Assembly (NCBI RefSeq): GCF_014652575.1
Contig: NZ_BMZB01000001.1
Location: 868,001 to 932,000, forward strand
DNA: 64,000 nt
Direction of reading: 5' to 3'
Source: Asticcacaulis endophyticus
GTDB taxonomy: Bacteria; Pseudomonadota; Alphaproteobacteria; Caulobacterales; Caulobacteraceae
Under the pieces are notes generated by a model. The model did no database searches. It had not been told where the DNA came from and was given only the letters and a program-made list of their open reading frames with translations. How positions within the stretch are numbered: position 1 is the stretch's first letter; every line of letters begins with the position of its first letter. The position numbers were made by a program, and so were the translations under genes. Of this stretch, positions 9,631-13,370 are shown in pieces.

Positions 9631-11472
<1,842 letters not shown>

Positions 11473-11669
11473 ATGAGAGGTCTCCGCTGTGGTGATTTCA
11501 GCCTGTAACGCGAATTTGCGATGTTTGATTAGCACGGATAAATTATTTTTGCCATAAATCCCTGTGACAAAACATTTCCATGTCGATGGTTATTGGGTTG
11601 AATAATAACAATCTTTTATTTTATGCTTAAATTTATGTGCGACTAAATTTACATGACGCAATGAATAAT

Positions 11670-11717
11670 TTGCAAAATATTTGGATTTTGTTGCAATCAT
11701 TTGGGGTGCGCTATAAA
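11670..11717 (+). promoter_or_regulatory. Candidate promoter and operator of the HTH-glmM gene
   Basis: A possible -35 TTGTTG (11688-11693) and -10 TATAAA (11712-11717) are separated by 18 bases, about 30 bases before the start codon. Overlapping the -35 is an imperfect inverted repeat: TTGCAAAAT (11670-11678) against ATTTTGTTGCAA (11685-11696). It includes two copies of the self-complementary TTGCAA. The region is strikingly AT-rich compared with its flanks. It lies between glmS and HTH-glmM, so a protein bound here could affect both. Confidence 0.4.
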
Positions 11718-11747
11718 TTGCGTGCACAAACGCTGTGGAGCCTTTAG

Positions 11748-13370
11748 ATGAGCGAACCTAAATGGGAAAGATTGCTAAGTGCTTTAGGCGCGTCCGGCAT
11801 TTCTATCAAGGATGTCGCTGATGCCGCCGGGGTGGCGCAATCGAGCATCTTTCGCGCCCTGAACGGGCAGACCAAGTCCCCGCGTCCTGAAACGGTCGAT
11901 AAGATGGAAGCGGCGTTTGTGACTCTGGCGACCCGGAAAATCAATGACTATCGCTCCGCCCTCACGCTCTACGGCTTTAACCCGATCAAATCCAAAAACG
12001 AAGAATTGGCCTCGCATATGACCAGCCTCAACAAGACCCGCAAATATTTCGGCACCGATGGTATCCGTGGCCGCGCCAATACCTTCCCCATGACCGCCGA
12101 AGTCGCTTACCGGGTCGGTATGGCGGCGGGCAAGATGTTCATGTCGTCGGACGATCGCCGCCATCTGGTGGTCATCGGCAAAGACACGCGCCTGTCGGGC
12201 TATATGATTGAGCCGGCGCTGGTGGCGGGCTTTACCTCGGTCGGCATGGATGTGCGCCTGTTCGGGCCGCTGCCGACGCCGGGGGTGGCCATGATGACGC
12301 GCTCGATGCGCGCCGATCTGGGGGTGATGATTTCGGCCTCCCACAATGCCTTTGCCGATAATGGTATCAAGCTGTTCGGGCCGGATGGCTATAAGCTGTC
12401 CGATGAAGTCGAACTGGCCATCGAAGCGCGTATGGACGGTAATATCCTTGATGGTGTGGCCGAGCCTCATCAGCTTGGGCGGGTGGTGCGCGTCGATGAC
12501 GCTCAATCGCGTTATGTCGAAATCACCAAGGCGTCGTTTCCGCGTCATTTGCGCCTGAAAGGGATGCGCATCGTCATAGATTGTGCCAACGGTGCGGCCT
12601 ATAAGGTGGCTCCGCTCGCGCTCTATGAACTGGGTGCCGAAGTGTTCCCGATCGGGGTGTCGCCCGATGGTCTGAATATCAACAATAAGTGCGGCTCGAC
12701 CTATCCGCAGACCATGGCCGAGGCCGTCAAGACCTACCGCGCCGATATCGGGATCGCGCTCGATGGCGATGCTGACCGGCTGGTGATCTGCGACGAAAAG
12801 GGTCAGGTCATCGACGGCGATCAGATCATGGCTATCATCGCCGCCGCCTGGGCCAAAAAGGGTCTGCTGCGCGGTGGCGGGCTGGTGGCGACGGTGATGT
12901 CCAACCTCGGCCTGGAGCGCCTGATGCAGTCAAATGGTCAAAGCTTAGAGCGCACCAAGGTCGGTGACCGCTATGTCATGGAACGGATGCGCGAAGGTGG
13001 CTTTAATCTGGGCGGCGAACAATCCGGCCACATTATCATGAGCGACTATGCCACGACCGGCGACGGCCTGATGGCGGCTTTGCAGGTGCTGGCGGTGCTG
13101 GTCGAATCGGATAAGCCGATGAGTGAGCTAGGCAAGCAGTTCGATACCGTACCGCAGTTATTAAAGAACGTCCGTTTTTCCGGCGACAACCCGATGGAAA
13201 AGGATGTCGTCAAAAAAGCCATTGCCGCCGGTGAAGCCGCCCTCAAGGGTGCCGGCCGGGTGCTGGTACGCCCCTCGGGCACCGAGCCGCTGATCCGTGT
13301 CATGGCCGAAGGGGATGATGAAAAGCTGGTCAAATCGGTGGTCGAAGATATCATCGCAACGATGGTTTAG
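11748..13370 (+). CDS. glmM: Phosphoglucosamine mutase with an N-terminal helix-turn-helix domain
   Basis: One uninterrupted 540-codon frame. Residues 1-60 form a helix-turn-helix domain ([20 protein letters not shown], then [19 protein letters not shown]) of XRE/LacI-like pattern. A linker of about 30 residues follows. From residue 91 there is a complete GlmM ([18 protein letters not shown]). GlmM converts glucosamine-6-P to glucosamine-1-P. Seen: the phosphoserine loop ISASHN (Ser198; 108 in core numbering), metal loop DGDADR and phosphate loop [11 protein letters not shown]. The loop reads ISASHNA where ISASHNP is usual. The first ATG has a TGGAG ribosome site eight bases upstream; the core ATG at 12018 has only a weak GAAGAA, so a separate shorter GlmM is possible. 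Enzyme identity is certain; regulation is inference. Confidence 0.95.

Follow-up and report, generated by a model that had tools for sequence, protein, structure and literature searches.

The glmM gene of Asticcacaulis endophyticus, which lies in a 64,000-nucleotide stretch of contig NZ_BMZB01000001.1 (hereafter the window), encodes in one uninterrupted frame an N-terminal helix-turn-helix (HTH) domain of the Cro/C1 type and a complete phosphoglucosamine mutase, GlmM. This fusion, HTH-GlmM, recurs within the genus, and the gap between it and the divergent glmS gene carries 18-bp dyads that occur with the fusion and are missing without it. The explanation favoured here, which is probably though by no means certainly correct, is that HTH-GlmM is a two-domain enzyme-regulator whose HTH domain binds the gap dyads and represses both glmS and its own gene; DNA binding, the direction of control and the sensing of a ligand are what we infer from comparison of sequences. 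Two hallmarks of an enzyme-repressor are apparent, namely a DNA-binding domain that is fused to a complete enzyme and kept by selection, and a conserved promoter dyad that seems to be tied to the presence of that domain, with the glmM-side copy missing in two of the 19 fused genomes. The coordinates of all features are collected in Table 1.

Profile searches identify both parts of the protein in a single frame, as a first-pass annotation of the window had proposed. Pfam HTH_3 matches residues 15-57 with an E-value (E) of 2.2e-6 in the whole protein and 1.1e-7 in residues 1-90 alone, and the scores of 28 and 32.2 bits, respectively, exceed the gathering score of 23. Four PGM_PMM Pfam domains span residues 98-536, and the NCBIfam glmM model TIGR01455 matches residues 101-537 over model positions 1-438 of 442 with 609 bits, as compared to an equivalog cut-off of 447.55. 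The translation contains the loops ISASHN, DGDADR, GGEQSGH and RPSGTEP, which we take to be the catalytic loops of GlmM. The nearest solved structure for the catalytic part is 3pdk (E 1.4e-125, residues 98-536), and the six PDB matches named phosphoglucosamine mutase begin to align only at query residue 98 or 99, none of them covering the HTH. The earlier placement of the HTH within residues 1-60 stands, and the proper start of GlmM lies near residue 98 rather than at residue 91. Because HTH-GlmM is the only GlmM found by a search of the genome, the sole other match being a 27% identical phosphohexomutase, it is expected to be active as a phosphoglucosamine mutase, converting glucosamine-6-phosphate to glucosamine-1-phosphate.

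The HTH assignment is more than a chance match, because HTH_3 is found in all 19 fused members (E 0.01 or better) and the helical model is confident. When residues 1-96 are modelled alone, the mean predicted local distance difference test score (pLDDT) is 80.8, and helices at residues 5-16, 20-27, 31-38, 47-74 and 79-94 give the arrangement typical of HTH_3, that is, four to five helices with helices 2 and 3 as the HTH. A full-length structure prediction, with a mean pLDDT of 34, was set aside. Foldseek superposes the model on SinR, DdrO, 434 Cro and the Lac headpiece at 2.0-3.1 A over 43-54 columns (E 0.2-0.3); none of the 274 PDB matches falls below E 0.001, and the top match by E-value, HNF-1A, superposes poorly (10.9 A). 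A profile of the 19 HTH domains likewise matches only remote HTHs of the Cro/C1, Lac and TetR types among PDB sequences (E 0.043 and up).

The HTH domain is kept by purifying selection. Ratios of nonsynonymous to synonymous substitution rates (dN/dS, by the method of Nei and Gojobori) over 11 pairs of sequences range from 0.01 to 0.24 in the HTH, from 0 to 0.50 in the linker and from 0 to 0.10 in residues 97-350 of GlmM. Within the predicted recognition helix, S32, S33, F35, R36 and A37 are invariant in all 19 fused sequences, as is G40 just past it; residue 31 is Gln or Pro (Pro in six genomes), and residue 39 is Asn or Ser.

The distribution of the fusion was followed within the genus and beyond it. 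Of 25 Asticcacaulis genomes, 19 possess the HTH domain, each in frame with GlmM (18 complete, including that of the window, and one cut), and the other six have no copy detectable at E 1e-10. A search of a genome collection gave A. machinosus and Asticcacaulis sp. UBA2476 as named relatives, at 97% and 98% over the HTH, and 22 further loci whose HTH matches are short and no stronger than E 1e-6. The cut member is Asticcacaulis sp. UBA2476 (genome G003; L062, about 7070), where a 725-residue frame enters, after approximately residue 358, what looks by eye to be a ribosomal-protein-S1-like repeat; this is probably a misassembly of the metagenome-assembled genome. For G002, one of the six genomes with no detected domain, the state of the fusion cannot be judged because the glmS and glmM fragments run off the ends of contigs C6, C7 and C13. 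The same glmS end is present on two contigs of G002.

Outside the genus, a profile of the HTH domain recovered only the window's own genome from an evenly drawn sample of the class (385 genomes, E 1e-5) and from one of the phylum (398 genomes, E 1e-6). Of 299 genomes of the order, a single-domain search matched 52 at E 0.01, those better than 1e-10 being two Asticcacaulis members only and the rest 8.8e-6 or weaker; many of the weaker matches lie in frames of 330-420 residues, a length as in LacI-type regulators. In the initial HTH comparison, none of the 36 genomes outside Asticcacaulis aligns across residues 1-77. HTH-GlmM thus appears restricted to Asticcacaulis among the genomes searched, with none found outside. 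The question raised by the first-pass annotation, whether the fusion is conserved and always next to glmS, is answered positively for the 19 fused members of the genus and, among the genomes searched, for no lineage beyond it. With regard to phage, no phage record matches the HTH at E 0.01, several PHROG families, mostly regulators, match it at 3e-8 to 1e-4, and phage HTH proteins match the predicted fold weakly (E 0.03 and up).

The fusion was apparently made within this one genus and lost again in some lineages. In a GlmM tree built without the HTH (30 rows), the unfused genomes G014, G006, G007 and G009 group with six fused genomes (93/93), and G004 branches at the base of Asticcacaulis without resolution. 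A PheT tree of 19 of the 25 genus members mixes fused and unfused states as well. Constraining all fused rows to group together is not rejected (approximately unbiased test, p-AU 0.058 and 0.24), and neither is constraining all unfused genus rows to do so (p-AU 0.11 and 0.15). Because the trees mix the two states and neither constraint is rejected, the likely though unproven history is one gain within the genus followed by two or three losses. A degraded HTH had been suspected in G014, where a match accompanied by a TAA begins at residue 67, and this candidate was discarded; the gene of G014 has a normal start at MSATPNQRKYFG, and the additional match falls within the gap.

The divergent orientation of glmS and the shared region of 275 bp (11473-11747) agree with the first-pass annotation. 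The start of glmS was placed, in preference to a longer GTG frame, by the Cys that follows Met, which we take to be characteristic of the family. All 19 fused genomes have a divergent glmS, with gaps of 184-295 bp. The same divergent pair with no HTH occurs in four of the five unfused genus members whose locus can be read and in all six of the other genera looked at (these being six among the 12 genomes of the family that lie outside Asticcacaulis in the initial HTH comparison), and in G004 glmS is separate from glmM, the adjacency having been lost or never present. By this comparison the divergent arrangement is older than the fusion. The earlier suggestion of a self-regulating enzyme therefore keeps its real, conserved fusion, to which dyads linked to the fusion can be added, and loses adjacency to glmS as evidence of regulation, since unfused genus members and other genera have the same arrangement.

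The evidence that ties the fusion to particular sites comes from this gap. Because the pattern TGC-N12-GCA was first noticed by eye, an exhaustive count was made of dyads formed by all 64 trinucleotides at 23 spacings (2-24) in seven clade representatives of the 19 fused genomes. TGC at spacing 12 is present in all seven representatives (0.85 of seven expected), tied with GCA at spacing 15; each of the two occurs in one of eight unfused gaps, and any dyad reached seven in two of 150 shuffles. On the glmS side, TGC-N12-GCA is found in 19 of 19 fused gaps and in none of the four unfused genus gaps, and it occurs anywhere in the gap in one of the six other genera; there is none ahead of the separate glmS of G004. 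Some fused gaps carry extra copies, up to four in all. A fuller motif, TGCNAT-N6-ATNGCA, allowing up to two mismatches in its ten positions (the loose motif), gives two sites in 17 of the 19 fused gaps, one in the remaining two and none in ten of ten unfused gaps, nor is it found in the 300 bp before glmS or before glmM of G004. Thus the dyads occur with the fusion and are missing without it. Other clades possess dyads with perfect arms, for instance TGCAATAAATTAATTGCA. In place of the one inverted repeat that had been reported at the promoter, the repeats of importance in the shared region are two separate 18-bp dyads.

Comparisons that make no use of the motif lead to the same sites. In ungapped comparisons of gaps (21 pairs, 100 shuffles), the glmM-side dyad is the best stretch for G000 against G020, G021 and G022 and for G012 against G022 (scores 14.0-18.5; 0/100 shuffles). 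Site 1, on the glmS side, is next-best for G000-G022 and G012-G022 (1/100 shuffles), and with its neighbourhood it ranks first for G005-G017 and G005-G020 (0/100 shuffles). Across whole genomes, the exact motif has zero to five matches in each of 14 genomes; G022, G016 and G024 have 4, 4 and 5, respectively, two of which lie within the glmS-glmM gap each time, and none of 4000 shuffles produced two exact sites in the gap of G022, nor did any of 4000 for G024.

A number of observations weigh against binding of the HTH to these dyads. Two loose sites arise in 0-26 of 300 shuffles of the same gaps and are thus not rare per gap, and the exact motif is found in the gap of only three of the nine fused genomes searched. 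Nothing above chance emerged for G000-G005, G000-G024, G005-G022 or G017-G022, and the best stretch for G000-G017 (5/100) pairs unlike sites. A position weight matrix trained on glmS-side sites with one clade left out, itself a weak test, detects a further site (p <=0.05) in six of 19 genomes, and only three of those six sites are the glmM-side dyad. For the eight genomes of clades B and C, the strict motif matches a nearby 18-mer on the glmS side instead of the TGC-N12-GCA dyad, and the two clade C genomes lack a dyad on the glmM side. Of the four unfused gaps in the genus, three have TGCTA, half of site 1, at 45-49 nt before glmS and the fourth has TGATA at 44, so that part of site 1 may be the -10 element of glmS. 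In the window's clade, site 2 does not cover the likely glmM promoter but stands upstream of it, and in clades D and E it overlaps a possible -35 element (both by eye). Finally, independent phylogenetic contrasts, counted with trait b entered by hand, number one on starred branches and three on all branches, too few for a significant test. A wider regulon was considered and set aside: a pattern derived from the two window sites has three matches in G000 (both sites and one inside an acyltransferase-like frame), and one of its matches in G005 likewise falls inside a long frame. The rarity of this pattern is not counted as evidence of function, because the pattern was built from those sites.

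Fur, Zur or another known global regulator was considered for the dyads. Two reports give a 19-bp palindromic motif for Caulobacter Fur sites and GTTA-5N-TAAC for Zur in many proteobacteria (PMC3751524, PMC4176598). The Zur motif differs from the dyads, and Fur was set aside because its palindrome measures 19 bp as opposed to 18 bp here, a comparison by description only and not a full exclusion. Looping with constant helical phase was also rejected, as the spacings between sites, 129, 140, 173 and 182 bp (by hand), do not keep a constant phase.

Elsewhere in the gap, a simple sigma-70 scan gives one match, that for glmS on the minus strand, as compared to 1.4 per region expected from shuffles, and by eye this match is not clearly retained in other clades. 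The start point predicted from it coincides with the edge of candidate operator 1. The ribosome site that the first-pass annotation had noted before the fused gene is present, and the promoter-like sequence it had claimed there did not emerge, as the same scan of the shared region found no promoter-like site for glmM. An RNA element such as the glmS ribozyme was discounted, with no Rfam match in 11200-12100 at E 1. A further conserved stretch, TAAATCCCTGTGACAAAACATTTC (11555-11578), is shared by fused G000 and unfused G014 (score 14.0; 0/100 shuffles), and it is therefore probably a glmS promoter or regulator element that predates, and is independent of, the HTH. Two copies of a 17-nt direct repeat, 76% identical, lie by the two gene starts at 11485-11501 and 11731-11747. 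A separate observation concerns residue 39 (residues 31-40 correspond to 11838-11867): clades with Asn39 have TGCTAA or TGCTAT in dyad 1, and clades with Ser39 have TGCTAC. This pairing probably reflects one evolutionary event and is a hint at most.

Table 1. Features of the glmS and HTH-GlmM region, in window coordinates
Feature	Position	Strand	Remarks
glmS	9631..11472	-	divergent; ATG at 11472 (MCGIIGIIG)
Candidate operator 1, TGCGATGTTTGATTAGCA, glmS side	11517..11534	.	TGC-N12-GCA; conservation between clades
glmS promoter-like TTGTCA-17-AATAAT	11542..11570	-	10/12 positions, simple sigma-70 scan
Candidate operator 2, CGCAATGAATAATTTGCA, glmM side	11657..11674	.	motif-free comparison; same place within each clade having it
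Shine-Dalgarno GGAG, 7 nt 5' of the long-form ATG	11737..11740	+	
HTH-GlmM fusion gene	11748..13370	+	single uninterrupted frame, 540 codons and stop
HTH domain, Cro/C1 (XRE type), residues 1-60	11748..11927	+	HTH_3, fold model, dN/dS
Predicted recognition helix, residues 31-38 (QSSIFRAL)	11838..11861	+	helix in predicted model
Linker, residues 61-96: end of long fourth helix (47-74), then fifth helix (79-94)	11928..12035	+	predicted model
In-frame ATG, Met91; possibly a vestigial or second start for GlmM without the HTH	12018..12020	+	
GlmM catalytic part, residues 97-540	12036..13367	+	TIGR01455, 3pdk

Several other explanations of the fusion and its dyads have to be weighed. That two separate genes have been joined artificially by a hidden stop or frameshift, a concern voiced in the first-pass annotation, has practically no chance of being right: sequencing error is excluded because 18 other, independent genomes carry the joined frame with no internal stop (17 full length, and the cut G003), and conserved residues lie on either side of the junction. 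It is also doubtful that the gene yields two products, with an internal start at Met91 giving ordinary GlmM and the long form being a minor regulator. Met91 and His90 are invariant in all 19 fused sequences, as such a start would predict, and Met91 is possibly the old start of GlmM; by eye, however, no Shine-Dalgarno-like sequence before codon 91 is common to the seven representatives, whereas the window has GGAG before codon 1, although a good ribosome site there is not evident in all clades (for instance G005 and G020).

Somewhat less doubtful, yet still improbable, is the proposal that the dyads are sites of a different transcription factor or parts of core promoters and that the HTH acts elsewhere, by contact with a protein or on another DNA target. 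The likeness of TGCTA to an older glmS -10 element retained in unfused relatives fits this proposal, as does the right arm of site 2 in clades D and E, TTGCAA, which by eye could be a -35 hexamer. Promoters are also required in the ten unfused gaps, however, and the dyads are missing from all ten; moreover, whole dyads rather than lone hexamers are conserved between clade A and clades D and E, and exact matches outside the gap number 0-4 per genome (14 genomes), unlike what a global regulator would give. It is rather more conceivable, while on balance unlikely, that HTH-GlmM is a plain dosage autorepressor, whose HTH binds the gap with no response to substrate or to the state of the active site and simply holds the levels of GlmS and GlmM. 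All of the dyad evidence fits such a repressor equally well, and the linker, being the least constrained part of the protein, does not indicate tight coupling between domains. The use of an enzyme as its own regulator would nonetheless be easier to explain by selection if the enzyme also sensed something.

Under the favoured explanation, in which HTH-GlmM is both enzyme and regulator, the N-terminal Cro/C1-type HTHs of a GlmM dimer would bind the 18-bp dyads of the glmS-glmM gap, one dyad lying at the start of glmS, and the other either on the glmM promoter or upstream of it. Should the single promoter-like match prove correct, the putative start point of glmS would coincide with site 1. A published report describes the GlmM proteins of B. 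subtilis and S. aureus as dimers, and in the B. subtilis dimer it is the domains 1 that touch (PMC8573169). The HTH is joined just before this dimer-forming domain, so that the two HTHs of a dimer could face one dyad. Binding at both sites would, most simply, repress glmS and glmM, and the result would be a local feedback loop on entry to the synthesis of uridine diphosphate N-acetylglucosamine and peptidoglycan. A tentative prediction, to which we would give somewhat less than even weight, is that the active site senses the flux of cell-wall precursor, with substrate or the phosphoserine state altering how the dimer presents its HTHs and so setting transcription of glmS and glmM through both dyads.

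On this explanation HTH-GlmM would probably be an enzyme-repressor that makes use of an enzyme new to that role. The gap dyads and their link to the fusion are new here, and if the flux-sensing prediction holds, HTH-GlmM would be the first such regulator known to us within the phosphohexomutase superfamily. A search of titles and abstract openings in the open-access PMC literature, a coverage that stops short of subscription papers, gave nothing resembling HTH-GlmM and no study of how glmS or glmM is controlled in Caulobacterales; the main text of a paper on peptidoglycan recycling in Caulobacter crescentus, as far as it is accessible, does not mention glmS and has GlmM once, in a gene table (PMC13046382). 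If the explanation is true, a universal and essential peptidoglycan enzyme has become a transcription factor for its own pathway through domain fusion, and a mechanism that controls amino-sugar entry in Caulobacterales has come to light. Asticcacaulis, holding both states, with and without the HTH and its sites, would then constitute a natural experiment and a testable model for the origin of BirA-like enzyme-repressors.

Over its whole catalytic part HTH-GlmM is like ordinary GlmM (TIGR01455; 3pdk, 6gyz, 7ojr), and what sets it apart is the HTH that the phosphoglucosamine mutase entries of the PDB do not cover. That HTH has its fold and Pfam family in common with SinR, DdrO, 434 Cro and prophage Lp1 protein 11, with only distant similarity in sequence (lowest PDB profile E 0.043), and regulators of the SinR, DdrO and 434 Cro type are stand-alone proteins. 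In E. coli, amino-sugar supply is tied to regulation in another way, through NagC, a separate regulator that controls glmUS. PutA and NadR are enzyme-repressors of proline and NAD metabolism in which a DNA-binding part controls the enzyme's own pathway; they differ from HTH-GlmM in the enzyme concerned, and the DNA-binding fold of PutA is a ribbon-helix-helix. The DNA-binding domain of BirA is a winged HTH, as opposed to the Cro/C1 HTH of HTH-GlmM. In Firmicutes, GlmM binds the cyclic di-AMP cyclase CdaA, according to the report on GlmM dimers (PMC8573169), an interaction in which GlmM acts on a protein, not on DNA.

The likeness of HTH-GlmM to BirA of E. coli and B. subtilis would be one of working mode, that of an enzyme with a DNA-binding domain controlling its own pathway. 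HTH-GlmM lies outside the BirA family, with no biotin ligase domain among its Pfam and NCBIfam matches. BirA, moreover, acts in the biotin pathway under proven ligand control, whereas HTH-GlmM would act in the amino-sugar pathway under a ligand control that we infer. A BirA dimer binds operators and so controls the genes of its own pathway, as set out in the accessible text of one account (PMC4016012), and by the grouping used there unfused GlmM is the parallel of Group I and HTH-GlmM the parallel of Group II (PMC4016012).
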